Assembly (NCBI GenBank): GCA_011033025.1
Contig: WFMF01000026.1
Coordinates: forward strand, 248,001 to 312,000
Direction: 5' to 3'
DNA length: 64,000 nt
Source: Beroe forskalii
Taxonomy: Eukaryota; Ctenophora; Nuda; Beroida; Beroidae
Made by a program: the position numbers and the translations under genes. Positions 24,551-48,171 of this stretch are shown here, piece by piece. The notes under the pieces were generated by a model, which was not told the DNA's origin, ran no database searches, and saw nothing but the letters and a program-made list of their open reading frames with translations. Position 1 is the stretch's first letter. Each line of letters begins with the position of its first letter.

Positions 24551-24588
24551 GTTGAATCCAACATTGCCAGTGTAATACAGTGTAATAC

Positions 24589-25170
24589 TTGCATATCACG
24601 AAAATGTTTAATCATGTTTACAGGACAGCTCCAAACTTGGGTGGTCTTTTATCATCGACAAAACAATTAGTAATTGGTAATGGCCCAGGTGCAACCACCC
24701 CATGTGGTTCAAGTAGGTGTCAGTCATGCCCCTTGATGACAAATTCAGATGACTTGTCATACAAAGGGAAGTCAATCCAACCAAAGGCTGGTTCATGTTT
24801 ATCAAGGAACATAATTTATTTTGCTACTTGTTTGCTGTGTCATAAGGGTTATGTTGGTAAAACTGTTTCCCAACTCAGAACCAGAATTAATGGTCATAGA
24901 GCACTATATTACAAAATAAAGAAGGACCCAAATAAAGTATTGTCAGATAATACTTACAATAATGATTTGTCTTGAGCATACCATTTATATAAAGAACATA
25001 ATTGCACCAACCATAATGATTTCAATAGAGTTTATAGATTCACAATTCTACAGCATTCTAATCCCGATGACCTGGACGTTGCTGAAAATAGGTGGATCCA
25101 TGGGTTGAAGACATTGGAACCCGGAGGGATAAATGCCTCCAATCCATTCAGTATCCCTCTTATTCAGTGA
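24589..25170 (+). pseudogene. Penelope-like retroelement, C-terminal GIY-YIG endonuclease remnant
   Basis: One frame encodes the end of a Penelope-type reverse transcriptase and its GIY-YIG nuclease: PNLGGLLSSTK, a CQSC cysteine pair, NIIYFATCLLCHKGYVGKT, then LRTRINGH. After an in-frame TGA at 24973-24975 the same frame continues through AYHLYKEHNC, AENRWIHGLKTLEPGGIN and ends at the TGA at 25168-25170. The reverse transcriptase core upstream is missing, so this is a truncated, broken copy. The C-x2-C pairs before the nuclease are characteristic of the family. Confidence 0.87.
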
Positions 25171-25724
25171 CGTCCAGTCCATTCTGTATTTTTTTAATGT
25201 TGTCCCGTTTCTGAGTTTTTATATTTTGGATCTGTACCAGCACAGTACCCATCATTTGCTCTCAGTTCACTTTTATTTATTCAAAGAAATTTTGTTATTT
25301 TGAAACCGCTCATTTAATAAAGTTTTGATAAATATTCTTCTGGGAGATATCAAGTTTTGTATGGTTACTAACCAGAATATATTCCATTTTAGAATTCTGA
25401 TGATATATAGTATGAAACATGTCAATTCTTTCTAAGTGGTCTCTTACTGTGTGGAACATCGCCAGTCTCCTCTGGGTTTTAAAAAGTTTTCTACTTGCAT
25501 ATCATAAGATTCAACATAAACTAACTAGTGGGATTATTGTTTCATTGAACTGTCATGTTGGTTGACTTGCTATTATGCACATAGGTGATCAAGTGAGAGG
25601 CAGTGGATTGACTGAGCAGTGCACCAACTTCCAATTTGTCACTTAAGTGGCACATACACTACACAAAGCAATTGACTATTGATAATTCATTATTACTTGA
25701 CTGATAGTTAGACCTTTCTTAGGA

Positions 25725-26705
25725 ATGTTACAATCCAATATAATTCTTGAGAAGATTCCTGGTTATTATGTTAAAGATGTAGCTGTGAACTGGCATGGCA
25801 CCAAAATGGCAGTTTGCTCCAATAACACTGTGAATATTTGGAGTAGTAACAGTGAACAAAATTGGGTTAAAGAAGAAAATGGAATTGAACTTGATAAACA
25901 GAAAATTGTTGAGCGACTTTCCTGGGCACATCCTGAATTTGGGCTGGTAATTGCTGTTTGTACTAAGAATGAAATAACTATTTGGGAGTTCAAGTCTAAT
26001 GACTCAGGTGGTCAGTGGTTTAATAGAACAACTCCCCCAATCAATGAGCCTCGATATAATGTTATCAATGATGTCAAATTCAGTCCATCATATTCTGGTA
26101 TAGGCAGATCTAGAGCTCTTGATTTAGCCTATTGCACTGCTTATGGGCATTTGAAAATTTTGAGGTGCAAAGATGCTCATCTCCTGAAAGACTGGGAAAC
26201 TTTAAAAGATTTATCTTTAAATGATAAGGATCAGTTTACTTGCCTAGCCTGGAATGTAACTTGTAATTCTACAATGATTGCTGTTGGAACATCTGAAACA
26301 TCTTCTAAAGACACTAGAGGAGAAGTTAAGTTGTTTGAATATGATGATTCCAAGCATGAATGGGTTTACCGGGAAGTTATAGCTAAAACCTATAATGGCC
26401 AAGTAAATGATATTGCATTCGCCCCAAACCCTGGAAGATCATTTAATACACTTGCTATTGCTTCATCAGATTTGCAAATAATTGACTTCAAAACAACTGA
26501 TCATGGAAAAGTAAATCAGATTCGACAAGATCAAAATCAAGTGGACTCAAAGCAAAATAAGATTGAGGTTTGGAAGTTAAGTTGGTCAAGCCTCGGAACC
26601 ACTTTGTGTGCCACAGGAGATGATGGCTTTATAAGACTGTGGAAAAACAACAATAAGTGGGAGTGCACTAATACTATTAAATGGAATGGGACAGCTGTAT
26701 CATAA
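25725..26705 (+). CDS. seh1: Seh1-like nucleoporin, intronless
   Basis: Encodes 326 residues, slightly shorter than animal Seh1 (about 360). Seh1 is a WD-repeat beta-propeller in the nuclear pore Y-complex and in GATOR2, which signals amino acids to TORC1. Family signatures are visible: WAHPEFG near residue 68, the DVKFSP blade, LAWN, DIAFAPNPGRSFNTLAIAS near residue 230, and the closing GDDGFIRLWK and WNGTAVS. The AGGAATGTTAC context supports the start. It has no introns, unlike its neighbours, and its codons are strikingly A/T-ending, which suggests a retrocopy or an unusual origin. It is uninterrupted, so probably functional. A Penelope-like remnant ends 555 bp upstream. Seh1 rather than the related Sec13 is chosen on the blade sequences. 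Confidence 0.92.
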   Translation: MLQSNIILEKIPGYYVKDVAVNWHGTKMAVCSNNTVNIWSSNSEQNWVKEENGIELDKQKIVERLSWAHPEFGLVIAVCTKNEITIWEFKSNDSGGQWFNRTTPPINEPRYNVINDVKFSPSYSGIGRSRALDLAYCTAYGHLKILRCKDAHLLKDWETLKDLSLNDKDQFTCLAWNVTCNSTMIAVGTSETSSKDTRGEVKLFEYDDSKHEWVYREVIAKTYNGQVNDIAFAPNPGRSFNTLAIASSDLQIIDFKTTDHGKVNQIRQDQNQVDSKQNKIEVWKLSWSSLGTTLCATGDDGFIRLWKNNNKWECTNTIKWNGTAVS

Positions 26706-27089: not shown

Positions 27090-30000
27090 ATGGGTGCAAA
27101 ATGTGTTCCTGAAAGTAATACATATGAGCAAGTAATGCAGATTAACACTGTGAAATGCAGTGCACCAGACTCTTTACCAGAAAATCACACAGTCAATGGC
27201 ATTGCTGATTCTACACCAATCAAGTTTGTTTCAAATTTACAAACGGTCAATATATTTGCCTCCACCTAATATTCTATTTTATAATATTGATTCAGTTATC
27301 ATAAAATCAAATCTATAACCATATTATAATTTGTCACTGCATCAATAGAAATCTAATCTTCAATTTTCTATCAGAAAGTCTACAGAAAAGAAAGCAGGAG
27401 TAAATGGGCCAGAAACAGAACCTCAGACCACTCCAGAAGCAGTGAAGAGTAATGGAGTAGCTCCAGTTGCTGCTGCTGCCACCCCTGAGACCCAGAGTCT
27501 GACTGGGAATCACTCGAGGAAACCCAGTGTCGGCACCACCAACAGCTTCAAAGCAAATGGCTCTGCTAAGAATGGCGACAGTCTGTCCAGGTAAATAACT
27601 CATCAATTGAAATGTGTTTGTTTCTTTATTTCATACAGAGAATTGATTGATTGATTACTCAAAATCGAGGTTACAATTAATAATAGGTTCCTTCAAGTTT
27701 TTCGTTCGTAATTCTATCATTAAATAAACAACTCTGAATTTAAGTAAACAAACACTTGAACCTATCAACAAACCATGCAACATCTCTAAATTTCCATACT
27801 TTAGTGCGTGTTTCTATGTTGAATACGATTTGCTTCATGCAAACCAACTCTAAAATCTAAATGAACATAATCTTTTGTTCCTCACTGGTACTAACCACTT
27901 AATTAGTTACTTAGTTGTACTCTCAGTATGTAATACAGAGCGTAGGTCAGGTACTATCCTTCATAGATGCAGTACCGCCGATATGAGCTGTTGAATAGCT
28001 CTAAGTTTTGTCCATCAAGTCATTGTACCTGGCATGTTGTGCTGTTAACCACGGTGAAGACTCCGAATATGATCCGTACTTCACATCATAATTTACTTCT
28101 GACTGTAGAAAAGTATAGGAAACAAGGAAATTTAAGATGAATGGTTATTACTGCCTTTAGCTTTAAGGGCCTAGTTCAAATTCATGCGAGGCTTCTCATA
28201 CTGCATTTCCTACTTTATGTTAATTAAGTCAGCGTTTAATGAATTCTCATGAATTATATTATATGTGTGCTGTGAGCTGATAGACGTCTGATTGGCATAT
28301 AACCTCCTTATTATGCGCATCTCATTATCCGAATATACTGTGGCTTCGGACCACTGGGGAGGAATAGGATAGATTCCCCAGAACTATCTCCCTCAGCCCA
28401 TTCCGCGGAAATCATTTTATCGAGACCAACTCAGCGCTGCTCTTATACGCATACTTCTTATGTAGTGCCTGCTGGCCGCCCATACTCGCTAGCCACTTCC
28501 TGCTGACGGTATTATCAGGATGGGTAATGGTGAACAGGCGAACAGCCTCGTAGTGTATACGAACTCATGTTAACTTAGTACATATAATGCAATATGTAAT
28601 GTGTATGATTCACCATTAGCTTACTCGCAGCTTTTCTAGCTGTTTAAAGCCAATGTGTTCTATTACATGGAGATGATATAACATCTAATGTACCAGAGCT
28701 CAGTGTATTGTAGTCAAATGTATGAATAATGTATCTGCCGGGTATTCATAGGCTTACAGAATATCTGAATTGTGCATTATGAATGGTGGAGCAGTGCCTT
28801 ACTGTGGCTCACTACAACACGAGCCATGCACTATACGGGGACACGGGGTATACCCTGAATTTAGGGGGAAGGGGGTTGGGGACTACCCCCAGATTCCATA
28901 CCTGTTCTAATACGGGAGGGCACCAAAAATTATAGGGTTTTTGAAGGTTTGAAGGGTTTCCCCTAACCCATCCTCTACTTATACTAACATACTAACGGGT
29001 CTCCAGTTTCAGGTCCACTTCCACCATGTCGAGTGGTTCCATAGCGAGTAACATCAGTCAGCTGTGTGAGAAGTACTTCATGCAGCCTTTGATCAGGAGC
29101 CGCTCTCTGCCTACTAACATGCCCCACAACAACGTGAGTACTGGGGTGTCAGAGTGGTGTCAACAGAGTGGTGTCAGATTGAGTGGTTTCAAGGTGGTGT
29201 CAATTGAGTGTCAAAGTGGTGTCAAGAGTGAACTAGGACTGTGGTGTCAGAGTGGTGTCAATTGAGTTGTGTCAACTGTTTTTGATAGTGGTGTCAACAG
29301 GGTGGTGTCAGCTTTGTTAGAGTTGTGTAAGAGTGATGTCAATGAAGAAGAGTAAAGAGCAGTAAACAAAATAAGGACTCCCTTCTACATTCTGGAAGCA
29401 GGGACACTATAACCGATGATATTCAAGTCCCCACTCTTACACCATACGTTACTCATTTATCCAAGAGAGATGTAATATGCCCGCTCTATAGTACATATTT
29501 AACACCAGACTGAGTTGTATTCGCTTATATAGTGCTTTCCTGGAACACCCTACCGAGAATATTTTACAAGCCAGAGATTTTAAGGAGATTTGAGAATATT
29601 ATTTAGTCTCCCTCGTACATTCCCTGATTTACTCCACAGATGGATTGTGAATTTCAGTGCAATCTTGCTTTAAAAGTTTAGGCTCCCCTCAGGGCCCCTA
29701 TGATATTAACCCTACCCCTCTAACCCCCCCTCTCACACCGCCCTCTAACCCCCTTCCTCCCCTTCCCCCTCTAACCCTCCCCGCCCCCCTCTAACCCTCC
29801 CCCTCCCCCCTCTAACACTTCCTTCCCCCTCTAACATCCCCTCCCCTCTAACACCCCTCCCCCTCTAACACCCCCTCCCTCCAGACGTCCGGGTCGCCCC
29901 GCTCCATGCCCTACATCCACCTGCGGCGGAAGAAGGGAAAGTGTCTGCGGAAGTTCTGCATGCGGTTCCTGGCGCCGGCGGCGGCGTGCAGCGGCGTGGC

Positions 30001-33000
30001 GGCGTGCCAGTTCAACATCGTAGCGGACAGGAACCTCGGGAAACCAACCCCGGTGAGTTTATAGGGGTGCTTTTAAAAGGTGTTTTAGGAGATGCAGAAT
30101 CCAGACAAATAGTGGATAGTGGGAAGTTTGAGTTGCAGTGGGGAGTAATTATTAAGGGATTTGAATACTAAATCCGAGGAAATGAGCGCGGAATAAGCCG
30201 CATTTAGATAATGGCTCATTCCTTGCTCATTTTCACAAATCTAAGGTGCAAAAAACAAAGAAACTTATTAAATTGGTAGCGGTGGCTGTACGTGAGTACT
30301 GAGTATGTGAATCTCTCCCCAACCATTGTCTATAGAATTAGGGTGTTTGTATACAGTACTGAGAACTGGTGGGTTGATTGTTTGTAAGTAGTGCGTGTTA
30401 TTTCAGTTCTCAGAGTTGAGCCTGTTGTTCTGAAGCAGTAGGGAAATTACATGGAACGGTATAGAAAGTGCAATAAGTACTACAAGAAATAATAGAGAGT
30501 TCAATAAGTACAGATGTGATTGTCTTTACAAATTACTAAGAACGGTATAGATAATAGAAAGTTCAATGAGTAGAGGTGCTGGTCTTTACATGACGTATCA
30601 TTCATGCCTATTGTCAAATGAAATAAACTTTATTTCACATCCAAGCAACGCATTATATGCCATATTGTCTATTGATTACTTGTAATTACTAATTTGATTA
30701 CTATTATTTTGACCATTAATTTCGTGATAGTCACTTAATCAAGATGTACAATTGTAGGAATCATGAACAATTGTAGGAATTATGCAATTCTAAATTAATA
30801 TTACATCAATTGATCAATGATCAGTCCCCGTTGTAGAATTTTTGTGTTCAAGTTCTAGAGAATCTTCTAGCCAATATTCTAAACTCTTGCATTGAGTAAA
30901 ATCCTAAAATCATTGTTGGATTCACACGGTTATCGAAATGATAATAATTATCCTAATTTATTCTATATCATTCTATTTATTCTAATTTAACCTATATCAC
31001 AGCCTACTATATATCCTGCTTAATTATTCAATAAGAGCATTGTCCACCGATTGAGAAATGAATTAATGATCGGTAAACTAAGATTTTAGTCCTGCTGGAT
31101 GGGTGAATCCGTCTTTCCAAATGTGGAGAAATTCTAAAGTTTAAAGATAATTTACAATTCTACCACCTTAACAGTTCCCAGAATAAACTTATTAATTCCG
31201 TGTGACACACTACCAAATGCTCCTATGACTCTTGACACTAACCCCCATCCCTTTCTCCCCTGTTGCTTGCAAGAGAATAAACCCCCATCCCTTGCAGGTG
31301 ACGGGACTAAGCCAGTGTACCCGCTTGGTTTCAGTAAAGGAAACCCAGGGTTGGAAGGAGCCATTCCTCCCGTGTGTAATGGGGTAAACACCGTCAAACT
31401 GCAGCAACTCAGAGAGGCTAACCGGCAAGAGGAGGTCGAGAAGGTGAGGATTCGGTGATAGACTGTTTTTAAATGTTACTGTGATGAATTGAAAGTAAAA
31501 AGAAAATAGAAACTGACTTTCCATAATGCTAATTTGACGCTTATTCTTGCCTCTTTTCTCAATATTTCTACCGTAAATCCCTCTAAAGAGGTTCTGAGCA
31601 CCCTCTGAACAGTTAACTCCATTTCTAACCCCTCAGCCGCCGTACAACTTCTTCATCTGTCACACGGAGGAGGACTACGTGCCCTACGTGGATAAGTTGG
31701 TGAAGAAGTGCGAAAAGGAGGGGGTCTCCATCTTCTCCAGGAGTTACTCCCTCCTGTGGGGAGACAGTCAGAGGGTGGACACCCAGCTAGCTATCAGCAG
31801 GTCTGTGACGGGGAGGAAGGGGGAGTGAGTGGGGAGGGGGAATGAGTAGGGAGGGGGAGTGAGTGGGGAGGGGAGTGTGTGGGGAGGGGGAGTGTGGGGG
31901 AGTGAGTGGGGAGGGGGAGTGAGGGGTGAATCGGGAGTTAGCGGTGGGGGGTAGGGAGCGATTTTTCTGATCTTCTTACATTCATGGCTGTGCTCACGAT
32001 GATCTTGCATCACAAGTGAACAAAATGAATTAATGATAGATCTCGGCTGATTAATGAAGATTTAAATTATCATTAGTCCATCAGAAATTAATTCATTAGT
32101 TAATGTGTGCATACCAAGGGAAAATAATATTTAATTGGGCTCAGTAATTCCATGCTCAAATTATCATATACATGAAATATACTGAATACTTATTAATAAA
32201 TGCGATATAAATTCTCATGATTTAACTCTGAGTGCAGTATATTATCGTGCCGTATATTCAACTAATAATCACGAATAAAGGGCAGTGAATTTATTCACTT
32301 TCTCTTTCTTCCTCCTCTCGGATTCCCGGCCTTTATACATTGTTAAGGTATGCATAATGTAATATGCTGTTATGCGCGTTTATTGTTCGATGTGACACTC
32401 GTTATGTATGCGGTAATGTAAATTCCTGTAAGAGCGGCGCACATCTGTAAATGTGACGTCATCAATGGACTACTGTTACACCTCATTTAAACAGTTGCAA
32501 ACTCAAGATAATTTAGAAATTGATACAGGGAGTAGGGACAAAGGGTCTTCGTCAATGGGACATCATCATTTAAACAGTAAACACTCGTAAGGAAATGGCG
32601 GTTTTCTGGGGGCACAGATCCTCTGAAAAACTCTTCCTGAGGCTTCACCGGATCGACGTGTGTCTTCTTCTAATACTGAGTTCCCTTTCAGTACATCTGT
32701 CTCGTAGCACGAAGTAGTGAGGCTATCCCCTAACGCAATGTATTACTAATTCAGTGAATATCTTATCATTATACTACATATTACACCGCATATTATGTAG
32801 CCATATAACGTCTTCATTATGCTACCGCTTATAAAGTATGCAATATAACATAAATATAACAATATAGCATACCATCACTGAGTGTAATGGTACACTCAGT
32901 GTGATATGTAGGCTGCTTTAGGAGGGTACTGTTAACCTCTCTGCCCTGAAGAGTAAATATAGGCGGCCCAGAGGCTTCACCTCACCACTCAGCTCCATAA

Positions 33001-36000
33001 TCAACTCACCACTTTAAGCTACAATGATGCCTTCAACTCACCACTTTGAGCTACAATGATGCCTTCAACTCACCACTTTGAGCTATAATGATGCCTTCAA
33101 CTCACCACTTTGAGCTATAATGATGCCTTCAACTCACCACTTTGAGCTATATATTGATTCCGTCACCTCAAACGCCTACTTTTCTGCGAATGAGGTGCGC
33201 AGTGTGGTGAGTGACTCAGAGCGTTGAGTCTTGTTAGATTTATCAGAAAGAGCATGAGATTCTGAGAACTCCACCGCGTATGATTATGATAATAATATTA
33301 TGTTAATTCATAAAGTGTATATTAATTCATGCATTTAACTGGGATTGGTGAGAGAATGAGGCGTGTGGTTTACATGACGTCACTGTTATAGGTTAACATG
33401 GTGAGTTGGTGAGTCAGCCTAGTCTATTTTAGCGTGCAGGGTTTGTTAAAACCTGCTTTGTACTCTGGTGACGTAGGAGGCTGAGTTTTTGAGGAAAACC
33501 GCCCAGCTTGTTATTGTTTTCAGCGGCAAAAGGATTTCTTATGCACATAGGAATAATTTCATAGTTAGTACCATCATAACGGCATTAAAAGCTCCTTTCG
33601 GTCACACACGAAAATGAGAATTCATGGGAATCTTTCATGCATATATCTTTGGATGGAACTTTTTTCCAGTTTCATTGTCAAAATCCTCAAAAGCGATTGT
33701 ATCAACTTGTATTGGGAAGTCCGTGATCATCATTGCCTTAACTTTATTAAAGAAGCATGGCTAACAGTAAAATAACTCAGTCTAGAAGGTCACCAACTTA
33801 ATGATGAGTAATCTGATAAGTTATCAAGCTGAATATATTGAGGCTTGCATATGTAACGGGCCATGTTTAGACTAACATATGGACACCAGGTTTTCTTATA
33901 TATTAGTCATAATATGCACATAAACGGAATAAATTGTGGTTATGGTCGTGTCGTATGAGACATATTCTGCATATCATATTTGAATAAAATGAAGTTTTGT
34001 CTAAAAGTTATCAGTTCGCTACTCAGTATGAGATTTCCCTATTTTTAGAGCGCAATGAATGGAATTCGGGTATCGCTAGGACCCCATCCCTCTCACATTT
34101 TTCACTCTTGAGACAATCAGTCTGATTAGAATTTGGGTTTGGGTGTTCTAGAAATAGTGAGGGAGAGATGGGAACAATGCCTCGTTTCAACCTCAGATGA
34201 TAAAATATCATAACGTAACTTCCTAAGCAATAGGCAATGTAGAGGAACATTCTGTGAAGGTTTGTAGAATTCTGATTCCCTGTTCCAATAACTCCGCTTG
34301 TTTCAAGAATAACTAGAACTCCACTTGTTTCAGTGCGTTATTCGGGATTGTGCTCCTCTCTCCTGCCCTGCTCAACAGTTACAGGAGCTCTTGGTGCGAA
34401 AAGGTAGGTTTGTCAATTATCAGTTGAGTGATTTGTGAAATCGCCAGTTTTTAAATCACTGAATTTCAGGATTAATATGTATCCCAAATCCAGATACGTG
34501 TTTCCAGAACTGATTCCATTTTAACAATTCTATTAGAATATTCATGTCTCCAGATCATAGAAGATTGTGATTTCAAGCCCCAATCCCTAACCCTCACAGA
34601 TAACACGTTACTGTTCTAGGCTAATGAATTGCCAAACATGCTCCTTTCTGAATATTCCTAAGAAAGTAAGAAGGAGCTTTAGCTTTCCTCAGAAGGTTGA
34701 AATGAAACTAAAATCCCTACTAAAACAAGGGAATTCCCATTCCCCAGGGAATGGTGGAAGTCTAAATGTTTGTGTTCATTTGACACAGTTAAAACAGCTC
34801 TTGCCAAGTTTAATGTGGGTCTGGGAAGTATAGGTTGCTGTGAATTGAATAATAGGTTTAATGGCTACTGGAATCAAGTCGACTACAATATTATTTGTCC
34901 GTACATAATATGTGTGTTCGTGTTTTAGTTCGTTTGTTTGTTTGTACACATGTTCGCGTGTGTGTTCGGCGTTCGCGTGTTTTTGTTTTTAAGTATGTGT
35001 GTTCGCGTGTTCGCGTGTGTTTGTATGTACGCATGTGCGTGTGTTTGTATATTGTGTTTGTATGTACATATATGTTTGTATGTGTTTGTGTTTATAGACA
35101 TGTGTTTGTATAGTTGTATGTACAGATGTTTGTATGTATGTTCGCCTGTGTGTTTGAAGACATCGCAGAGAGGTACGTGTGCAGCACATTTTATAAGTGA
35201 TTGCTGCCTCTTACACTCTTAGCATATATTCAGTAGCCCGCATAATATGCTATATGCACATACATCAAGCGCTAGGATCGTGCAGTGACGTCATTATCAG
35301 GGGTTAGAGCGGGGCGTTGATGACCTCATAGGGTCTATTGTACGTGCAATGTTTTGTGAGTGTAAAGGAGGGAGCCATGTGTGTATATTAGAATAGCATA
35401 TTCAACGTTATGTGGGCTATTAGGTCACCAACCAGTGGTCAGGTGACATAACCAGTGGTGACATTACCAGTGGTCATGTGACATAGCCAGTTACATAACC
35501 AGTGGTCATGTGACATAACCAGTAGTGACATAGCCAGTGTCATTTGACATAACCAGTGTCACCGTGACATAACCAGTGGTCAGGTGACATAACCAGTTAG
35601 AATAGCATATTCAACTCATTGTGTTGACATAACCAGTGTCATGGGACATAACCAGTGGACATGTGACATAACCAGTGTCAGGTGACATAACCAGTGTCAG
35701 GTGACATAACCAGTGGTCAGGTGACATAACCAGTGTCTTGTGACATAACCAGTGTCATGTGACATAACCAGTGGTGACATAACCAGTGTCATGTGACATA
35801 ACCAGTGATAACTTGACGAAAAAAGGGGTTCTCTCAATCGAAGCAATAGCGTTATCATCATACTCGTGTGTGTATTGAACCTGTTATGTAAGTATCTGGG
35901 AATTATCTCCAGTATCCAACATTTAAACTTAAAGTACTCTCTTGGATATTGTTAGCGCTACTGAATGTCATTATAGAGTTTAGTTATAGGTATGTTATAC

Positions 36001-39000
36001 CTGCATACTAACTATTATAGTATTATACGGTATTCTAGTTGTACCTGCATCTACTTCACAATGTATGTATAACTTTGATATTCCAGTGAGATTCCTAGAG
36101 GCTAGAACAATTTCAAATTTAAATTATACGGTCGCAGGGCGTACAGTGGTGAATGGTGCACCCTTACGTTCTATCTACCTTGGATAATTCCCATTCTGTG
36201 TACCCTATAATTACATGTGAAAGTTTCACAAATGAAGCCAAAGAAACTTTCGACGCCAAATTTTCAACCAAACATCGCCTGCTGAACTTTGAAACCGTAC
36301 CACGCTTTATGTGGTACAGCGCACATTTCAAACGGTAAAACTCCCCCTGAAACGTTTTGGTTTCATGAGTTCATGGTTAACTACACCACTAAAACTTGTT
36401 AAACTTAAGGCTGACGTTAATTGTCTCTGACAGTGCCTTGCACGAGCTAATTTAAGTGCCTGTTCGATATAGGACACGCCGAAATATGAAGTGTACAATT
36501 GAAATGGAAAATAAATTTACACAATGTATTCACAGGGTCACATCATGTTTTGCTCCTTCATAAAATCATGTTTTGTGCCGACATTTAGCATAATGTTTCT
36601 GTGGCAGTCCTATTACGGCGTTAAATAAATAGCTTTACAGCATATCAGCTGAAAAGTGAAAGCATGAGAAAACCTATTGAACTAAATAAGTTAATAATTC
36701 TGATAATTGATTGGCATATGGGTATTGGACTGACGCTGCTGCCGGTTTAGTTTAAGGTTCCCAAATACTTCCCATACTACCAAATGCTGGCCAATGTTCA
36801 AATGGATATGATGCTGTCAAGTAGTGTTAAGAACTGCTGCAGTAGGCTATTGACTTGTGTGTTATCTGTATAACCTACAAAATATGGGATTTATCCGCAT
36901 ATTGTTCCTGATGTCATACTCTTAAATAGCTCCTATATGGGAGCTGTTAAATTAATATATTATATTATTCAATAATATTACTGAGGCAGGACAAATTCAT
37001 TATTATACCTTTTATATATGCTATTCGAGCAGGAGTAATGAAATGTAGGCTGAGTTAGGCTACTAAATTAGGCTACTGAGTACTGCTGGAGCGTGACAGG
37101 TTACTTGGTTACTTTGAAAGGTTAATTTGTCACTTGAAAGGTTCGTTAATTTGTCTCAGTGAAGATTCATATATTCCACTTAAACCTATTAAACCTACTC
37201 ATACTTTCTTACAAATCGCTCGCGCTATTGTGGCTACTTAATTATATTTTAAGTGTTGTGTGAATTATGAGTTTAATGAAATAAAATTAAGATTTAGATT
37301 CAGATTTAGAAAAAATGGGTTTTGTTACTTAACTAAATTCAGTAGCAATCCTGAATGCTGATAGTATGAGAAATGGCATGTTATTCATGAAGTTTTTGTA
37401 AGTTATTTAACTATTAACATCATCGCTATAAATAATATTTAAATTCTCTGAAATATTCTGTTATCATTAAACGTCTCCTCTTGAGAGTGCACCTGGCCCT
37501 GCATAATGAGTCGTTTCCATTATAAGATAGGCGGCCTCAACTCCTCAACTATATTGTGACTGTTTAATAAGTGTTTATCAGTTCAACCACTCATAATTAT
37601 TCATGATATAACCTCAACTTCGTGTGTTTATTTATTGAAAAGAAAGAGAATAAGTTTGTCAAATCACTGCAACTTTGTACTGTGTTTTGAAGAAATTAAA
37701 ACAGTCACTTCAAAGCAAGAAGACAGCGTTAATCAGAACGCCTAGTCGTTACTGCGCGACTTCCAATATAGCAAACGTTTTCCTGCTTACGTCAGTGGAA
37801 CGTTGAGTGAGGTTTCATTTCGTTACTTGAAGGTTGAGTGAGGTATGTTTGATTATGTGTATTTCATAAGAGCATAATATATTTTCTCATTATGTTTTAG
37901 TGTACTCTGGAAAGTTGGAAGTCGGAGCATTGGCAATGCTAAGTGGCGTCATTATCAGGGTTTATTAGGGTGAAATGATGCGTCAAGATTATGGAATTGA
38001 TTAACACTTTAAACCGGCGTGAAGATTTCATTTTATGAGCATAAAAACTGCCATATAATGCAAATTAAAACGGAGAGATTCGTTAAGAAGTAATTCGTTG
38101 TCATGTGACCTATTTTCAAGTCTGGTAAGAAAGAAAAGCAATTCCAGTGGTTAAAATACATGTAGTTAATTCTCTTAAATCTATTTGTTAAACACTCAAC
38201 TGCTTGTGTTCTTCAGAACAGCTACATTTCAAATATTTATTTAGTCTAGACTCCTCGATTAGCTTGAGAACATATTTCAAGTGATCTCTTAACAATAAAG
38301 CAACAATCAACTCCAAAGGTTTATAAACCCCCATAAGCTGATTGAGGTGGTTCAATCAGTGACGTCACTATAACGCTTTACAATGGTGAATTGATGACGT
38401 CACACTGTAATATGCTGCGAGTGTGTGGAGGTGGTTAAACTCAATATAATATTCTAACATATTCCTGCTCTAGAAAATACCCCGGATTCCTGGAATCTAA
38501 ATACCCGGCATTTATTACAGCTACAAGAGAACTATATGTGCTCCTTTATAAACTATATGTGCTCCTTTATAAAGCGTCTGAATGCATTTCCCTTTCCTGT
38601 AGATTCCTGTAGATTGTAGGTGGTTTTGATGGGATACTCACACAATATTCAGGGGAATATCGGACGTGATTATCTGGGGGCAGGATCTGGGGGCAGTATC
38701 CGGGCTCTCACTTTCTATTTTCAGGGGTTTCAATCAATCAGCAATACATGAACATTGAAGTGGTTCTGGGAAACGTGTATTAGTTTCAGGAACGTTGAAG
38801 TAACGAATTGAAATGTTACTAAGTGACATTACACGAGTATTATTTCAGGATTTGGACGTGTTGTTTGACCGTAACACGAGTGTTAACGGTTGCCACAGTG
38901 TCATTCTGCCCATCTACTGCGGTGGAATCACTCATGAACAGGTAAAGCTACTATTTAATTTGATTAGTGATTTCCTAAAAATTCAAGGAAATTTAGAAAG

Positions 39001-42000
39001 GTTGCCATTCAGAAGTTTTGTGGTTTTCATTTTTCCTAATGATTTCTATTTTTAAAGCAATGAAAATCACGATAAGATCGACTCCCTTTCAAACTGCATT
39101 ATGTCCATAGGTTATTAAGTTCCCTATACACAGTCCACAAACCCCACACAATGAACATTTTCTCAGTGTAAAGACCCCGGTTGCAAAGTGTAGAAACACA
39201 TCGGATAATATGTTCATGATATTTTATTCATAAGTTCATAATATCCACAGCATGTATCATGGTTTGTAGAATACAACATGTATTGTACCTGCTCACAATG
39301 TCCCTCTCTCTAACCTCTTTCTTTCTCTGATCTCTCACTCTCCCATGTAACTATTCCTCAGAACAAATTAATTGAATTTAATTTAAATTATGTCAAATAG
39401 AGCTCCATGACTCCCCTATATATATTCGTATAATTTATGTGTTATATTATGTGCATATTAAGATGTTTAAAAGTAGTAAGATGATGCTCGGCAGACTACA
39501 CACAGAAACAGTCTCTCTCTCCCCACGTGTGGTGACGTCATCAACTCACTGCGTTACTGCGTGAGGATGACGCTGTGTTTTGACTTCTATTGCATTTAAT
39601 TCGTAGGAATATATTCAATGTTATTACATGTGTAATGAACGCTACACCCTCTATAGGACTTGGAGTCTTGCCAAGTGAGGGGTTTGTAGGAAGGAAATAC
39701 AGTGGAATTAATGTGTTAACTACATTGTTATCTTATGTATCGCATATCCGGCATCATTATTCAATGTTATGTATCTCTTCCTGTATCCGGCATCCGGTGA
39801 ATGTATTGGAAATGTACAGATACAGTACACGCGGTATTACACACAATACACACACAATACACACACATTACACACAATGCCTTGCAATATATTCCAGTGC
39901 GTGACCAGAATTCATTATATTCTAGGGGTATTATATGCACTGCGGGATTATATGTATGAACCAAAGAATAAATTAGACGTTACAGAGACCCCCAGACTTG
40001 AGAGCAGCGCGATAACGCTCCTCCTGCTCCTTTATAATAAATAATTATCCAATTATATTGAGTCGTCGAATTTAATAGAATATATCAAGCTGAAGAGAGT
40101 CCATCGCTGGTAGGAAGGAATGAAGATAGAAGTGTTTCGCTCTCAAGATTAATTGACACTAGTTACATGTATTTATTACTTTTGATTGAAAGATTGCTCA
40201 TGAAAGCCCAAAACAGCGGAAGTGAGAAACGCGTTGTCAGATTGCAACATTTCCAGCCTCCTTTAACATACTATAATATATTACCGTAATAATAATATGT
40301 TACCATGCAAAACACCACGCCCTACTGAACACCAATACTCCTCTTCTCATATGGAGCACGTGACCTCTAAGTCACTTGATCCAAACAGGGGTCACGTCAT
40401 CTAAACAGGGGTCACGTCATCTAAACAGGGGTCACATGATCAAAACAGTGGTCACGTGACTCAAACCAAACGTGAAGTCAGTAAAACAGCTGTTTTCATT
40501 GTGTGGCCAGGTTGGCACGGTGCCCAATTTGAGCGGTGTTAGGAAATACAATAATGCATAATATATGAGTGACACATCGCGTGCCATGTGGTACCCTGTA
40601 ACTAAAACAACAGCTAGCACAGGCTTAAACAATGGTGCTGAGAAACACTAGGAAAGAGGGGATGGTGGGAGATTGGAAGTGGTGATAGGGAGAATTGGGA
40701 TGTTATCCATCATTTCCTTTCCTATTTCTTCCACTTCCTTCGGGATTGATCATCAACGTATGGTGTGATTAAGCCCCAGCAGCGATGTTTTGCAGTTTAA
40801 GAAACACACGTAATTAATAGCTCCTCACAGCTTGAGTCAAAAGTGTGAGGTCATCAGATGAAAAATAGAGCCTTTATGCCACTGCTCAGTACCAAGCACC
40901 ATTGTTAGCCTTGATAGACTCATAATGCACTCACATACTGACATGAGAACTTAGTGCTGAAAATGGTTCTTTCTGACGTTATCATGGTTCACAGTAGCAG
41001 ACAGGTGACGTCACAACTAGTCTGTGTGTGCCCTTGTCTGTTTGAGTGTGTGTTAGTTTGTATGTGACTGTGTCGAAGAGCACCTCTTTCTTCAGAACAT
41101 CCCATGTCACACAATGCACTAGAGTAACTAGTACCTACTGTTTTAAGTGCTGTTAGTTTTATATATGGTGCGCAGTGCGTTCTGTACACATATATAACAA
41201 CATGTGGAGCAGGTACAGATTAGAGAAATTTGGAGCAGGATTGAGAATTGGAGAAGTGTGTCGTCTCGTTAGGTTAATAAAGGGCATTATTGACGGCAAG
41301 ACAGATGGGAGTTTCAGTTCCAATGTACTGGAATTAATGTTCCATCACTAAAGCATTTGTTCTGCACTTTTTGTCGTTCCCAAAATATAATGAGTTGATG
41401 CTACAAAGAAAGAGTCAATGGATGAGGAGCCTTTTCTCAATTTAAAGTGAAAAGCTATTATTAAGACCCTCATAAAGATTAAAGAGTATACACGCCCTTA
41501 AATTTCGAAACAACTGCAACTCCACTGTTCCTCACAACACAAACTGGACATTTGGCCAAAATCTAGTTAGGATCAGGGCAGAAAGATAAATTAAAATTGT
41601 GTGATGTTTAGGCATAAGGCCAAATATCCAGTAAGGCCAAATATCCAGTAAGGCCAAATGACCTAGAAATACGCCATTCCACGGGTCGGGCGTTACGCGC
41701 ACCGCTCTCAAAGTGAGAAAGTTTTTATTTATAAAGTGAGAAAGTGTTGTCAATGAAGAGCATACACCTTCAATTGCAAAACAATAGACTCCTCTGTTCT
41801 ATGGATGGAATCTTGACTTCATAATGGCACTTCTAAATGTTCAGTGATTGTTCAGTGATTGTTCAGTGATTGTTCAGTGATTGTTCAGTGTTATGACGCA
41901 CTCTCTGAATTTGCCAGTCCTTGTCACATTATTTGTAAACTTCAATACCTGAAATACTGCCACCTCTTGGTACACTTGGTTAATTCTGAGAAAAAGTAAA

Positions 42001-45000
42001 TGAAGAGTACCCGTGATTTCATGTAAAAAGTAAAACTTTTCCCAATCTCATTAAATGAACACAACACGTGTTTTGGAAAGTGTGGTGTGGTGTGAACGTG
42101 GAAGTTTTAATTACTCTGAAATTGAACAACTTACCCACTTTCTGGGTGTTTGGTAAAGCTGTGAGATTACGTGAAATTCTGTACTTTTTAGTGCTCTCTA
42201 TTTCTCTGGTCACCTTCCAAACCTACCAGTGATTTGCTTCGTAATCCCTATCAAACATTGCACAATGACTGACAACATCCATACTCTCTTAGTCACCAGT
42301 CTAATCTTCGACTCCTTGCGAAGCTCACTCATCAGGGATACGACACCGGCCCTAAACCTAAAATCCTTGTAAAGCTTGTAAATAGGTACACCAGAAATTA
42401 CTCATGCACTTATTCACTGTATCACATGTAATTATGGAACACTACTCGCTCGCCCTCCCACGGTTCGGGTGTATCACGACTCTCAAGACTCTCAAATAAG
42501 GTATTATTGTGTTACAGGTGCAGGCGAAGTATCCCTTCCTGACCATACAAACCCGGCTAATCTACGAGGAACAGAAAGTTGACGGAATTGTGAAGCAGAT
42601 GAAACTAGTTCTGGAAAAGCGGAAGGTGGATTACACGTGTATTACATTGCTGTAATATACATGTAATATTGCTGTGCATAACATTGTCATGATGTGGTGT
42701 AAAATGTACATAACGTTGCTGGTTATGTTAGAGGGTGATGTGTACATTATTCATAGCATTGGCATAATGTAGTGCGAAATGAGCACTGCCTTAATATCCT
42801 GTAATTTGGTGTGAAATGTGTGATATTGTGGGGTATATAATATGTTACATAATAATATGTTACATTATGATACGCGTCTAGAACATTGCAGTATGTAGAT
42901 GTTACATGTATACATACATACACACATACATGTAGATGTCTATTGTTAAGGGTTTTGTGTGTAAACGTGGTTAATGTATTTGTACAGTGCATGTGTTAAT
43001 GTATGTACCGTATGTTCGTCTTTAATGATCCATTGTATTCCAATGTGCGTGTGTATGTGTATGTGTATTTTTGTATGTCTGTATGTATTTGTGTCTTTAT
43101 TATTCGTGGGTGTCTGTGTGTATGTATGCCTTGTGTTTATAGTATGTTTGTCTGTATGTATGTCTCTATCATGTATGCTGTATGTATGTCTCATGTATGT
43201 CTCTATCATGTATGCTGTATGTATGTCTCTATCATGTATGTCTGTATGTATGTCTCTATCATGTATGTCTGTGTGTATGTCTCATGTATGTCTGTGTGTA
43301 TGCGCATATGTGTCGGTACCACTTGAATTTATGCGTAATATACCCATATTTGAGCGCTGTGTGACACCTGACAAAGCCTCCAATAAATAGCTTGTAGAAT
43401 ATGCTGCATAATGATGGATATATGCGACCACCACACTCAGACTGTGAGCTGGTGACGTCATTATCATTACTCAGTGTGATGAATTATAGGTGAAGTAACT
43501 GCCTATTAGGCGCGCACTGGGGCATTTAATTAACACCTAACATGGAATTTAATTGGGACGTTGTAACATTTTCATTGTTAATTTCAGAAAAGCGGAAGTC
43601 GAGGGCATCTAGCCTGATGCGGGCCCCAATCAGCAATACCTGTAAACTGGATGTACAAGTGAGTTGAAATTAACCCTTACCCTGACCCCTCTAAAAGTGA
43701 GTTTTAATTAACCCTGACCCTGACCCCTCTAAAAGTGAGTTTTAATTAACCCTTACCCTGACCCCTCTAAAAGTGAGTTTTAATTAACCCTTACCCTGAC
43801 CCCTCTAAAAGTGAGTTAACTAACCCTACCTCCGGACCCCTCTAAAAGTGAGTTTTAATTAACCCTTACTCTGACCCCCCTAAAAGTGAGTTTTAATTAA
43901 CCCTGACCCTGACCCCTCTAAAGTGAGTTGAAATTAACCCTTACCCTGACCCCTCTAAAAGTGAGTTTTAATTAACCCTTACCCTGACCCCTCTAAAAGT
44001 GAGTTAACTAACCCTACCTCCGGACCCCTCTAAAAGTGAGTTTTAATTAACCCTACCTCAGGACCCCTAATAATGTACATGACTCTTCCCCCATACTGCC
44101 AGTGAATTGACAAGTCTGGTATTAGGGGGTTTTAAATGTACGTGTCTTTAATCACGCGCGTTATGTTGGGAGTCCTGCCCCGCAATTCAGTGTTAATGAA
44201 AAGTGAGGCGATTAAAGCTCACATATTCAATGTAATTAACAGTGTAACATTTTATGTACATTTTATTACAGGTTGTAATGAATGTATTATGCTGGTATTA
44301 GAATTCCCTATTCGTGTAACTCATGGGAAACTTATATAACTTGTCTCCTACGAATGTAATTACGCGATAAGACGCATTGACACAGACATAAAGTCTATTT
44401 ACATTATAATAAACATTTAACATAATATGTACTGCATAATGTGGTCAATTTACATGACTTTATGTAACGCGCGGCGAAATATCCCCGACCTAAGCCAATG
44501 GCGTTTAGCCTAACTTTTTACATAATATTACTGCACGCGCGTTTCCCCCGCATAAATTGTAGCTTTGATTATCTCAAGACGTCGCGCATAGGGGAACAGT
44601 CTCTGAAGTAGAAATAGTTTGCGAGGTTCAGGAAAGTGATAACGGTGTCGTGTGTACAGACCCTCAGCAAAACCAAGCAGGGAAATCCAACGGAGTCAAG
44701 GAAACCAAGCCTCATTCTGATTCAGTGAGTTGTGTTGCTAAATATAGAATATTTGGGAGTCAGTAGTCAGCAGCGAGCCATGCGCTGAATCACTTGTTAG
44801 ATATCTGATAAAAGTAGGGGCATGCAGTCTGGAGTACGATCGAGCCCCAGAGTTGGATTTACTTTCTAGTTTTGTTAAATTCAGAGCGCAGAAAGGGCCA
44901 CTCTTTCTGATTTACAATGTATAATATTGTTGTATGGAATTACTATTAGGATATTAAATATTCTTTCATTTACCTAAAAATACAATCACATCCATAACCA

Positions 45001-48000
45001 TCCCGGCTCACTCCCCAAACTCACTTCATGAAACTTTCATGGAATCATTCTAGCACATCCATGAAATGACATGTTGCTTTTTATCATTTAATTCTTTAGT
45101 TTCCATATACTATGGTCCCTTGGAATATATCACGACGCTTTCCCCACTCTCTAACCATTGACTTGTGCTCCATTCATTTCCCATCTTAAGACCACTTCGT
45201 GAGGTTGACGCTCCTTCCCTTAGGCACCCTCACCCACCAAATTAAGTGGCGTATTGAAGGGTGGTGGAAACCACTGTAAAACAGGCGTTAAGAAAACGCT
45301 AAGAATAAACCCTGATCCGCCCAAGGTATGGAAACAGTACCAGTTTGTGCCAATACTATTCTATGTATAATTAATTGTATTAGAGTTAACAGGGGACAGT
45401 ATAGTATGGATCTATAAGTTTTTCAATGCTGAAAATCTCACATGTCTTTGACTTCTTTTCACCAAAAAAAAAACACGGTTAAAATATTTTTGCTGATATA
45501 TATCAAAATATCTTTTTCATGATAAAAGGGTTTTTCAATAATATTCGTTTACATTTGATTTGTTTATTCCTCCATTATTTCATGATATGTCTCGGTACGC
45601 TGTGCTAGGTGTTTTCACTCCACATGCTAACCACATGATTCTTTGGACCATCTTTCTTTCTCATTTTCCACCAAAAAAACCTTAAATCATGTCCGTCTCT
45701 TTGAAACACTCCATATAGCCCACCTAAACCCCTCACCAAGTCACCCCCTCAGATCCTACGCACAGAACCCCTCTACAAGACTGGGGGAGCTATCAACCAC
45801 TGCGGGCATTGCGGCCCTATGAGTTCCAAGTACCGGGGTGCTACCACCTACACCCAGTCTGAGCTGGACAGGGAAGCAGAGCTGATGGAACAGATACACC
45901 AGGCCCGCATTGCAGGAGACAGTGGGAGTGAGGGGGAGGAGGATGAGGATGAGGAGGATCTTATTGATGTGGACGAGGTGGGGACCTAATTTCTCTCTCT
46001 GACTTCGAAAAGTTCATAAATGGCGCCGGGTGACAGAAATTTTAGAATTTTTCTCAATTCTCGAAACTTCGCAACGCCTGGTTCATACCTTATTTTTGTC
46101 TTTATCTGTTCTCACATCCCTCAGCTTCTAAACTTCTACTCCCCCTCAGAAACTGCTTCAAGACCCCGCCAAGTTGAACGAGTTGCTCCCCACGCCCCTT
46201 TCCAACCTGCGGTTTGAGGTGCTGCGTCTTCTTTCCATCATGATGGACCCCATCACTGTCGTAGGGAACGATTTCACCACCTTCGCTGCTCAGATCGGCT
46301 TCTGCTCCACCTACATCAGGTACAGAACCTTCTACTTATGACTTATCATAGCTCATTAGGGTACATCAGGTACAATACCAGAGCTCGTTGTTTCAGGGTC
46401 CATGTAAATAAAAGTACCTATCAGAGCACATTATGTTAGGGTACATCAGGCACTACACCAGAGCTCATTATGATAATTGCTAGGGTAAATTATGTACAGC
46501 ATCGGAGCTCAATATTAAAGAGTAAATTAGGTACCTACCATGGATGTTAGATCAGGTACAGTTTCTAGATCTAAACTTAAAGGTACATGTTTCACAATAA
46601 GGAACATTAGTTTTAAGAATTTAGGGTAAATTGCATAATGTATACCATGGGTTCGAGTGTATCGACTAAAATAGCACACATTGGTTGAGTGATGACATCA
46701 TATTGCGTAACTCTCGCAATATGGCTGCATCACCAGAACAATGTCGTAATATAACTAGTACAGTGTCGTGACTTATACAATGCTAAGCATTCGGTGCGGT
46801 ATTCGGCTCCGCTCTCAATTATTCGGTTTATTCGGTACGTGATAAGTCGGGAGGGTTGTCTTTAGGAGTGATGAGAGATGTGTAGCTGTAAATAAAGCTC
46901 CCACTTTTAGGAGTGTCATATGATGTCATCAGTTTAGAAGCTTAACGTCTAATAAGATGTCACTATCATTGGCATGTAGTTTGTGTGGGGCTTTAGCTCT
47001 TTTAACTCTTCTTGTGCTAGTGATAACCGTTTAGAATAAAGAATGGTAAGGTTTGAATTAGGTTTAACAATGGAGTTTAATTTTACTTTGAAAACACCGC
47101 TTCAACAACAACCCTATAATTTACATGCACCAAAAACGAGTACATCGCATATAAGAAGACTTCATTTCAAGAATTTATATTCCTTTCATGAATTTGGTCG
47201 GAAATATAATCTACCATCAATACCAAAAGGAGACAGGAGGTTATAATAACTTTGGTATGTTCAGGTACTTGAAGGCTCTTGACATCAAGAAGAACAGTCC
47301 GTTTGAAGAGGTTCTGCAGATCTGGCAAGACTCCGCCCCAGACACCACCATAGGTGCGTATTGAAATAAACCCAATTTAAACCCTTTTAATTGCACCATA
47401 GATTTTTACATAACCCCCATTTAGACCCCTCTGTATTTCATTCTGAGCTCCATCAACCTCCCTCCCACGGCTGACGTGATCACAACCCTCTAGGCTCACT
47501 CGAAACCATCCTTTGAGCACCTGAGACTTGAGGCTTCTCCCCTCATTCCGCCCTCCTTTCTCATTCGTGTAAATGAACATTTGTACAGATCGTCATTTAT
47601 CCGTAAATTCTGAAAACCTTCTTTGCGTTATATTGGAATTATGCGGAAAAATATGCGACATAAAATGCAATATTTTACCACATATTATGTTCAATATGTG
47701 ACGGCTTAAATCATCAAAAAACCATTTAAGCATTTATTGTTTGAACATGACGGTCACATACCCGTTCCTAATGCACCTCTGATCATTCAGTCGTTCACGT
47801 ATTACGTTACCAGAAGGAGGGAGAATAGGGGGTCTCTGGGGAGGGAGAACAGGGTTCTTTAACATGTGCCACAGCGTTGTATGTGATAACAGAGAGGGTT
47901 TGAAAACACTCAGTCTAGTCACTGAGCTACCCGAGTACCCACATGCTCATATTAAGTCACAATGCGATGGAAGAGAGGGATTGAAAACACGTAATATGTG

Positions 48001-48171
48001 AGCACTGAACAACTCATGAAACACATCTCACATTGTCACAGCAGTCACATAAACCTGACTTTACCGGCCCCTCTCAAACCAGGGGACCTAATGTACCTGC
48101 TGAATGAGATTCGACGGAAGGACGTTGTGTATAAGCTGAACGAGTATTACCCAGTGCTGACGGAGCAATAA
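27090..48171 (+). CDS. TIR-death domain adaptor, MyD88-like with reversed domain order
   Basis: Exons: 27090-27223 (tentative), 27375-27590, 29013-29133, 29885-30052, 31276-31443, 31637-31800, 34334-34403, 38849-38941, 42518-42625, 43599-43658, 44668-44724, 45224-45325, 45753-45977, 46150-46319, 47265-47353, 48083-48171. All phases join and the sum is 2034 bases, about 677 residues. Order: a low-complexity Ser/Thr/Asn region, a basic Cys-rich stretch (LRRKKGKCLRKFCMRF, about 225-240), TIR (about 270-414), a linker with INHCGHCG and an acidic tract (about 540-562), and a death domain (about 563-677) resembling that of MyD88. It is likely an innate immune or cell-death adaptor at a receptor or higher-order assembly; the role is inferred. 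The first exon may be wrong: its donor (AAGTTTGT) is weak and it is AT-rich like the Seh1 block. Confidence 0.88.
29134..29345 (+). repeat. GTGGTGTCA minisatellite starting at a splice donor
   Basis: Directly after the donor GTGAGTACTG the intron becomes an irregular tandem of GAGTGGTGTCAAC-like units. The sense strand reads the same motif, in the same orientation and position, as the minisatellite at 1689-2213 in the septin gene. Confidence 0.85.
29690..29884 (+). repeat. CTCTAACCCC array abutting an acceptor
   Basis: About 190 bp of CCCCTCTAACCCTCCCC-type repeats end at CCCTCCAG (acceptor 29883-29884). Every unit contains a CTAAC branch-point-like motif and a pyrimidine tract. It parallels the septin intron at 53-692. 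Confidence 0.85.
30053..31275. other. Intron of the TIR-death gene, nothing else seen
   Basis: AT-rich intron. The acceptor of the next exon is ambiguous among CAAG, AAGAG and TTGCAG within 31260-31299; phase favours the exon start at 31276. Confidence 0.5.
31637..42625 (+). CDS. TIR domain exons of the adaptor (four exons)
   Basis: Exons 31637-31800, 34334-34403, 38849-38941 and 42518-42625 encode 145 residues, a normal TIR length. Box 1 is YNFFICHTEEDYV; the second helix-strand reads EKEGVSIFSRSY; the box 2 region is WGDSQ; the next strand is FGIVLLSPALL; then VILPIYCGG. The pattern is closer to bacterial-type TIR_2 and SARM-like domains than to Toll receptors. In the helix that carries the catalytic glutamate of NAD-cleaving TIRs the sequence is RVDTQLAI with no glutamate, so NADase activity is doubtful. 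No box 3 FW is seen. Confidence 0.88.
31797..31945 (+). repeat. GGGGAGTGAGTGGGG repeats after a splice donor
   Basis: Just inside the intron after exon 31637-31800, about eight imperfect GGGGAGTGAGTGGGGA units occur, several with a GTGAGT donor-like core. The minus-strand proline-rich ORF at 31768-32013 is a shadow. Confidence 0.75.
33005..33160 (-). repeat. Five-fold tandem of half a CRE-type element
   Basis: A roughly 30-bp unit, CAACTCACCACTTTGAGCTA plus TAATGATGCCTT, repeats about five times. The unit is the inner part of the dispersed CRE-type element with the CRE reduced to ATGCCTT. The rest of the 31,946-34,333 intron shows no gene. Confidence 0.75.
34890..35160 (+). repeat. GTGTTTGTATGT-type low-complexity repeat
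   Basis: Degenerate TG-rich simple repeat with GTTCGCGTGT and GTATGTAC motifs. The overlapping cysteine-rich and threonine-rich ORFs on both strands are artefacts. Confidence 0.8.
35425..35815 (+). repeat. GACATAACCAGTGGTCATGT minisatellite
   Basis: About 20 copies of a unit of roughly 17-21 bp, consensus GACATAACCAGTGGTCATGT, with indels. It lies in the intron 34404-38848 of the TIR-death gene, which otherwise holds no recognisable gene. Confidence 0.9.
38360..38402 (+). repeat. CRE-type element, both palindromes intact
   Basis: TGACGTCACTATAACGCTTT followed by ACAATGGTGAATTGATGACGTCA, with CRE palindromes intact at both ends about 27 bp apart. Related partial copies are near 35286-35330 and 37949-37985. 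Confidence 0.75.
40380..40460 (+). repeat. Short tandem GTCACGTCATCTAAACAGGG
   Basis: Three to four copies of a 20-bp unit with CACGTCA or CACGTGA cores. The intron 38942-42517 also contains TGTTCAGTGATT (12-bp, about five copies at 41840-41892), AAGGCCAAATATCCAGT (two to three copies at 41618-41665) and a CACACAATA simple repeat at 39838-39880. No gene seen there. Confidence 0.75.
42890..43315 (+). repeat. TATG/TGTC simple repeat in an intron
   Basis: GTATGTCTCTATCATGTATG and related TATG-rich units. The overlapping MYVS-rich plus-strand ORFs and HTHT-rich minus-strand ORFs are artefacts. Confidence 0.85.
43659..44080 (+). repeat. 38-bp minisatellite in which each unit carries a splice donor
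   Basis: The intron starts at the donor of exon 43599-43658 and repeats a unit of about 38 bp roughly ten times. The unit opens GTGAGTTTTAATTAACCCTT and closes CCTGACCCCTCTAAAA. GTGAGT, the real donor, therefore recurs in each copy. The exon-side base context (AA before GTGAGT) is also retained. Confidence 0.93.
46150..48171 (+). CDS. MyD88-like death domain exons of the adaptor (three exons)
   Basis: Exons 46150-46319, 47265-47353 and 48083-48171 encode about 115 residues ending at TAA 48169-48171. LSNLRFEVLRLLSIMM, DFTTFAAQIGF, FEEVLQIWQ, IGDLMYLLNEIRRKDVVYKL and the terminal VLTEQ line up in order with the six helices of the MyD88 death domain, including the helix 5 tryptophan. MyD88 carries this domain at the N-terminus; here it closes the protein. 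Confidence 0.87.
46309..46520 (+). repeat. Repeated exon end plus donor (TACATCAGGTAC)
   Basis: The junction TACATCAG/GTACAG of exon 46150-46319 recurs at about 46362 (TACATCAGGTACAATACC) and 46441 (TACATCAGGCACTACACC). Later decayed copies carry the linked motifs CAGAGCTC and TTAGGGTA. At least the first repeat retains a usable-looking donor. Confidence 0.8.
47897..47935 (-). pseudogene. tRNA-derived fragment lacking the anticodon arm
   Basis: On the minus strand, GGGTAGCTCAGTGACTAG (A-box-like) is followed after a few bases by TTTTCAAACCC (B-box-like). The 3' half resembles the tRNA-like sequence at 59988-60062 (AGACT, AGTG, TTCAAACCC). Probably a deleted SINE head. Confidence 0.5.

Follow-up and report, generated by a model that had tools for sequence, protein, structure and literature searches.

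The ctenophore Beroe forskalii carries, within a 64,000-nucleotide stretch of its genome (the 926-kb contig WFMF01000026.1, positions 248001-312000; hereafter the window, whose own numbering is used below), a 16-exon gene predicted to encode a TIR domain followed by a death domain of the MyD88 type. MyD88 itself is built as a death domain, a short intermediate domain and a TIR, and recruits IRAK kinases through its death domain. On balance we favour, short of confidence, a reading of the product as a ctenophore Myddosome-type soluble adaptor that would feed into an IRAK kinase; behind its N-terminal tail stands a TIR of bacterial type, which a long acidic linker connects to the MyD88-type death domain.

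Results

Gene layout and domain order

The model rebuilt from the DNA runs on the forward strand from the ATG at 27090 to the TAA at 48171, with phases consistent throughout, and encodes 674 amino acids:

27090-27223, 27375-27590, 29013-29133, 29885-30052, 31276-31443, forward strand: exons 1-5, N-terminal region, residues 1-269
31637-31800, 34334-34403, 38849-38941, 42518-42625, forward strand: exons 6-9, TIR domain, residues 270-414
43599-43641 or 43599-43658, 44660-44724, 45224-45325, forward strand: exons 10-12, linker, the least certain part
45753-45977, forward strand: exon 13, the linker part that holds CGHC and the acidic tract, residues 485-559
46150-46319, 47265-47353, 48083-48171, forward strand: exons 14-16, MyD88-type death domain with the stop codon, residues 560-674

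The TIR (residues 270-414) thus stands first along the protein and the death domain (residues 560-674) last. A preliminary description of this DNA had proposed 16 exons in unbroken phase, a TIR at about residues 270-414 and a death domain behind it; the rebuilt model and the Pfam matches given below agree, with the length corrected from about 677 to 674 residues and the death domain moved from about 563-677 to 560-674. An exon 10 ending at 43659 was rejected, as it breaks the frame by one base.

A death domain of the MyD88 type

Pfam Death matched the C-terminal domain alone with 43.2 bits (cut-off 22.6; E 4.5e-11) and within the whole protein at E 9.8e-10. When the domain was compared with PDB sequences, MyD88 was the only match below E 0.3 (1.3e-5); the next death domain, that of IRAK3, followed at 1.7, and beyond these two no death domain was found at E≤10. 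The E values obtained with phmmer against MyD88 were 7.5e-6 forward and 1e-5 in reverse, with IRAK4 as runner-up at 3.4 and 18. Among ten death domains compared, MyD88 scored 29.5 bits, IRAK4 11.3 and the remaining eight at most 5.5. Aligned with human MyD88, 29 of 86 residues are identical and the first 46 residues are free of gaps. By these comparisons the predicted C-terminal domain is a MyD88-type death domain, which upholds the likeness noted in the preliminary description.

A TIR domain of the bacterial, phage-defence type

Pfam assigned the whole protein to TIR_2 (PF13676; 30.5 bits, cut-off 28, E 5.7e-7) and not to TIR, and a preprint describes the TIR_2 profile as too broad to separate TIR subtypes (PMC13142454). 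In a PDB search with the domain the top seven matches were TIR sequences at 3.5e-11 to 1.3e-7 (AbTIR, TcpB, TIR protein). Their names are bacterial or unspecific, and we take them to be of bacterial origin. Animal TIRs started at 0.043 (Toll-receptor-related 2, TLR1/6, TIRAP), with TLR1 at 0.24 and TIRAP at 0.52, and no MyD88 TIR was found at E≤10. Among PADLOC defence profiles the top matches were PDC-S66 at 5.3e-22 over TIR residues 3-141 and ThsB at 3.3e-13. The NCBIfam profile Retron_TIR_antiphage reached 8.1e-11, yet this lies far under that profile's whole-protein cut-off.

As a control, eight other TIRs were scanned: those of human MyD88, TIRAP, SARM1 and TLR2, and four from the same genome. 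None of the eight was without a defence-profile match: MyD88 and TIRAP each fitted a ThsB model (21.6 and 15.7 bits), and SARM1 a SAVED-TIR model (43.9 bits). With PDC-S66 the window TIR reached 76.6 bits, locus L014 59.9, TLR2 31.3, L011 25.6, SARM1 19.3, L013 16.5 and L012 14.7; the human MyD88 and TIRAP TIRs gave no PDC-S66 match at E≤0.01. Compared directly with the window TIR, the human MyD88 TIR scored 2.1 bits versus 46.8 and 45.6 for two bacterial TIRs. In a tree built without TcpB the window TIR joined the two bacterial rows at 84/81, below the starred level, and with TcpB at 91/88. By these measures the predicted TIR is of the bacterial, phage-defence type and not of the MyD88/TLR type. 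According to the same preprint, the TIRs of MyD88, TLRs and TIRAP form an almost wholly animal clade, and most bacterial TIRs fall in other clades (PMC13142454).

These results bear on how the domains came together. Domain shuffling or independent assembly, as put forward in the preliminary description, is well in line with a TIR from a different group, that of bacterial type; for the same reason the protein does not appear to be MyD88 with its halves exchanged. A genuine MyD88 in which the two original domains had changed places would explain the MyD88-like death domain, but it would leave a TIR that finds no MyD88 in the PDB search, aligns so poorly with that of human MyD88 and scores so highly with a profile not listed for the latter, and we consider it very improbable.

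A scan of bacterial and archaeal genomes, which detects close relatives only, returned 242 stretches that match a pattern, none of them related at E≤1e-3. With no close bacterial relative, a recent transfer of the TIR from bacteria is unlikely; an old transfer would lie beyond the reach of that scan.

The W-x(3)-E motif reads WCEKDL in the window TIR versus WPQKEL and WTEYEL in the two bacterial TIRs, so that glutamate is replaced by aspartate. The conserved glutamate is, we assume, the catalytic NADase residue, and the aspartate suggests a scaffold rather than an enzyme role for this TIR. Its nearest relatives, being bacterial and phage-defence TIRs, would also fit an enzyme that consumes NAD+ or makes a signal from NAD, becomes active once the death domains assemble, and brings about cell death or arrest; NAD+ is described as a frequent substrate of bacterial and plant TIRs (PMC13142454). 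Against such an enzyme stands the aspartate, and an IRAK-like partner would fit a relay better than killing, which makes this alternative improbable.

An IRAK4-like kinase and related loci in the same genome

Two uninterrupted ionotropic glutamate-receptor frames of the 216-Mb genome have ML032222a, a Mnemiopsis receptor, as their best PDB match (5e-65 and 3.6e-64, ahead of the runner-up protein by 47 and 38 bits), which marks the genome as that of a ctenophore; an identity of at most 48% to a segment of that receptor sets it apart from Mnemiopsis leidyi. The Death profile search of the genome yielded a candidate partner:

G000:C569:355858-356094 (Death match), reverse strand: locus L030, an uninterrupted frame of 602 residues (594 within the locus) that encodes a death domain and a kinase domain

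Among its PDB matches at E≤1e-40 the best 26 of 41 rows are IRAK4, two of which reach into the death domain (8.6e-53 over residues 21-422); LysM and other receptor kinases trail, starting at 1.3e-46. Pfam Death gave 23.5 bits when the genome was searched and 19.6 when the whole protein was scanned, with the cut-off of 22.6 lying between, and over roughly the last 100 residues Pfam finds nothing at E≤0.1. The predicted product of L030 is IRAK4-like, combining an N-terminal death domain with an IRAK-type kinase. No NF-kB Rel domain was found in the genome search, which was run without a positive control.

Genome searches with the window TIR and death domain matched the window gene alone, save for one match at E 7.4, so that at the level of exons the gene has no close second copy. 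Profile searches, run exon by exon, gave 15 TIR_2 matches on 10 contigs and 7 Death matches on 5 others, with no contig in common; since they missed the window gene itself, these counts are lower bounds. A human MyD88 query gave no match in the genome, the window death domain included, and as it missed even that domain it cannot show the absence of a conventional MyD88. Two PF01582 loci considered as conventional TIR candidates were set aside, both being better TIR_2 matches.

Two observations concern the other TIR loci. L014 (G000:C415:43153-43422, reverse strand) carries another TIR of the bacterial type seen in the window gene, with E values of 6.7e-17 for PDC-S66 and 2e-10 for PDB 7uxr. 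At G000:C359:254667-257550 lie two adjacent TIR_2 genes with closely similar downstream regions (L016-L018, L021), likely a tandem duplication.

N-terminal region and linker

Residues 1-269 have no Pfam match at E≤0.1, and residues 1-213 no NCBIfam match. The N-terminus reads MGAKC; myristoylation at Gly2 was considered and rejected, the PROSITE pattern not being matched. In the 16-exon model 145 residues separate the TIR from the death-domain exons. This linker holds CGHC at residue 501, and 13 of the 21 residues just upstream of the death-domain exons are acidic, in agreement with the CxxC motif and acidic tract described earlier. Outside the TIR core no 19-residue hydropathy window reaches a mean of 1.5, the highest of the six windows listed being 1.49 at residue 185. 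We infer that the adaptor is soluble.

Reliability of the gene model

The scale used to score splice sites was trained on nine of this gene's own donors and ten of its acceptors, each left out in turn; percentages give the share of all the window's GT or AG sites that score higher. Most splice sites of the TIR and death-domain exons score well. The exon 9 donor at 42626 is strong (0.5% of GT sites higher), sites 45224 and 45326 and acceptor 46150 also score strongly, and acceptor 45753 of exon 13 is middling (20% of AG sites higher). Weak sites, outscored by 10-89%, are donors 27224, 43642 and 44725 and acceptors 31276, 42518, 43599, 44660, 45753 and 47265, which renders the first junction and the linker uncertain. 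The exon 9 donor and acceptors 45224, 45753 and 46150 are all in phase 0, and exon 9 could also be joined directly to exon 12 in phase, so that the frame from TIR to death domain is independent of exons 10 and 11.

Codon usage was compared with a null of 500 stop-free intronic stretches, each value being the fraction of the null that reaches the exon's score. Thirteen of 16 exons lie at or below 5% of the null (exon 7 at exactly 0.050, exons 2-5 at 0-0.026, exon 10 taken as 43599-43658); exons 1, 8 and 12 are weaker (0.206, 0.098 and 0.112). A second run gave 0.053, 0.002 and 0.123 for exons 10, 11 and 12. Exon 13 upstream of its first methionine scored 0.027, with the other frames nearly as good (0.070 and 0.108). 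As the null was drawn from AT-richer introns, these fractions may flatter GC-rich exons. Together with the Pfam Death and TIR_2 matches, the codon signal exceeds what chance would give, and the gene is real and coherent.

One gene or two

Several results weigh against a single gene for a MyD88-type adaptor. Most of them would fit two adjacent genes, one encoding a TIR-only protein that ends near 42.65 or 43.6 kb and one encoding an acidic-tract and death-domain protein that starts near 45.8 kb. If the exon 9 donor is not used, the frame runs into a stop at 42653, and use of a pyrimidine-rich acceptor at 43588 also leads to a stop. Linker exons 10 and 11 have the worst splice scores, with acceptor 43599 outscored by 89% of AG sites and acceptor 44660 poor as well. 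Exon 13 holds an internal ATG near 45818 at which a separate death-domain protein could start. AATAAA occurs at 43382, 44408 and 45304, between the two domains, and neither AATAAA nor ATTAAA is found within 1.4 kb after the death-domain stop. Within the domains themselves, acceptors 42518 (TIR) and 47265 (death domain) are outscored by 15% and 50% of AG sites.

Other points touch the identity and partners of the protein. By the tree tool, the closest TIR compared is 32% identical and the closest death domain 31%. None of the eight inner branches of the death-domain tree is starred; with no well-supported branch there, the MyD88 assignment rests on the pairwise scores. The window death domain and that of L030 score 0.4 bits against each other, that is, they have no direct similarity. 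The analysis turned up no receptor whose TIR matches, and the searches that returned no second copy of the gene also missed the window's own exons and are therefore weak.

Against two genes speak the good exon 9 donor, which is in phase with the strong acceptors 45224 and 46150, and the codon signal in exons 10 and 11 and in exon 13 ahead of its first methionine, possibly inflated by intronic AT-richness. In addition, Mnemiopsis leidyi is reported to have both domains in a single predicted protein (PMC11797021). Because that TIR2 protein also has a death domain, and because the TIR_2 and Death loci of the present genome lie on separate contigs, we favour one gene. Judged from genomic DNA alone, the TIR and death domain are probably carried on one transcript, and a split into two genes appears unlikely.

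Intron 9 and neighbouring features

A direct repeat bounds intron 9:

42614-42625 and 43587-43598, forward strand: the two copies of the 12-bp repeat GAAAAGCGGAAG, one closing exon 9 and the other immediately upstream of exon 10

In a check of how often this occurs by chance, 5 of 2947 random 50-mer pairs had at least 11 bases in common. The frame into exon 10 is kept only if splicing excises the stretch between the ends of both copies, for which the poor acceptor is required. Intron 9 was also considered as a mobile introner. Of its 87 matches 86 are at other places in the genome, but they all fall within the T/G-rich part of the intron (query bases 350-692), and the idea was dropped.

By eye, tandem repeats are apparent in the introns at 43680-44060 (unit near CCCTGACCCCTCTAAAAGTGAGTTTTAATTAA) and 35430-35810 (TGACATAACCAGTG). 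Upstream of the gene, an unbroken WD-repeat frame of 334 residues occupies 25701-26705 and ends 384 bases before the adaptor start codon; from its sequence we presume it to be Seh1-like. Further upstream, an open frame at 24586-24975 contains a GIY-YIG-like stretch (YFATCLLCHKGYVGKT...LRTRINGH) and may belong to a Penelope-type element.

Discussion

The window protein resembles MyD88 in having one TIR and one death domain, the latter of MyD88 type. It differs in its reversed order, its non-MyD88 TIR, a CGHC-containing acidic linker of approximately 145 residues and a 269-residue N-terminal region. By TIR type and domain order it stands outside the MyD88 family, yet it most likely works like a member of it. 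To the bacterial TIRs of Thoeris ThsB, PDC-S66 and retron-TIR systems it is alike in TIR sequence over most of the length; unlike them, its TIR is joined to an animal death domain, is encoded by an intron-rich gene and has aspartate in place of glutamate.

A close published parallel comes from another ctenophore. For M. leidyi, Koutsouveli et al. 2025 describe a single protein that combines TIR2 and a death domain and, in their words, 'might be considered as Myd88-like'; in their account none of the ctenophore TIR2s grouped with MyD88 in the TIR tree, and Myd88 is possibly absent from ctenophores (PMC11797021). Both species thus have the two domains in one predicted ctenophore protein. As the text of that paper (PMC11797021) leaves domain order, sequence and death-domain family unstated, we set the M. 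leidyi protein beside the window gene by its description, and we infer from the presence of one such gene per genome that the two are orthologous. The combination of TIR2 and death domain is therefore not wholly new, M. leidyi providing a precedent (PMC11797021). What is new is the domain order, the MyD88-like death domain, the phage-defence-like TIR and the accompanying IRAK-like gene elsewhere in this genome. This IRAK-like gene is perhaps known, since Traylor-Knowles 2019 is cited for IRAK and NF-kB in Ctenophora (PMC12849515), and IRAK in ctenophores may thus have been described already.

Similar pairings are on record in other animals. Sea-anemone Novel Gene 3 is alike in combining TIR or TIR_2 with a death domain in a non-bilaterian; as described, it differs in its kinase and in the Roc/COR and SH3 domains that SMART assigns to it (PMC5094078), none of which was found in the Pfam scan of the window gene. 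Xenacoelomorph proteins with TIR and death domains group with human TIRAP at low support (PMC12849515), and a 'TIR-DEATH sequence' of the sponge Dysidea avara is called orthologous to vertebrate Myd88 (PMC12909245); the passages concerned leave the domain order unstated in both cases. In the open-access literature we found no description of a TIR-first adaptor with a MyD88-type death domain.

As an adaptor, the protein could act in three steps. An upstream TIR protein would cluster it by TIR-TIR contact, the binding partners being assumed here. The clustered death domains might then nucleate a helical death-domain stack, if they stack as we suppose, and this stack would recruit and activate the IRAK-like kinase of locus L030 through its death domain. 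With approximately 145 residues between TIR and death domain, the order of the two should matter little, whereas the preliminary description had proposed that it would place the effector and receptor faces the other way round. The fuller picture, a Myddosome-like relay that has IRAK, does without NF-kB and uses an adaptor assembled separately from MyD88 by placing a MyD88-type death domain behind a phage-defence-type TIR, we offer tentatively.

The MyD88 signal in this gene is carried by the death domain rather than the TIR, and it is accompanied by an IRAK4-like kinase in the genome. If the window death domain and the IRAK bind each other, the death-domain-IRAK core of the Myddosome exists in ctenophores, and its receptor-facing TIR part was either exchanged or joined on independently. 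Should ctenophores be the sister group of the other animals, the death-domain half of MyD88 would have come first and been paired with TIRs more than once, or else the TIR was replaced and the order reversed. The core of the MyD88 immune relay may then be older and more flexible than thought, and both the question of which half of the pathway is ancestral and that of how much domain order matters become testable.

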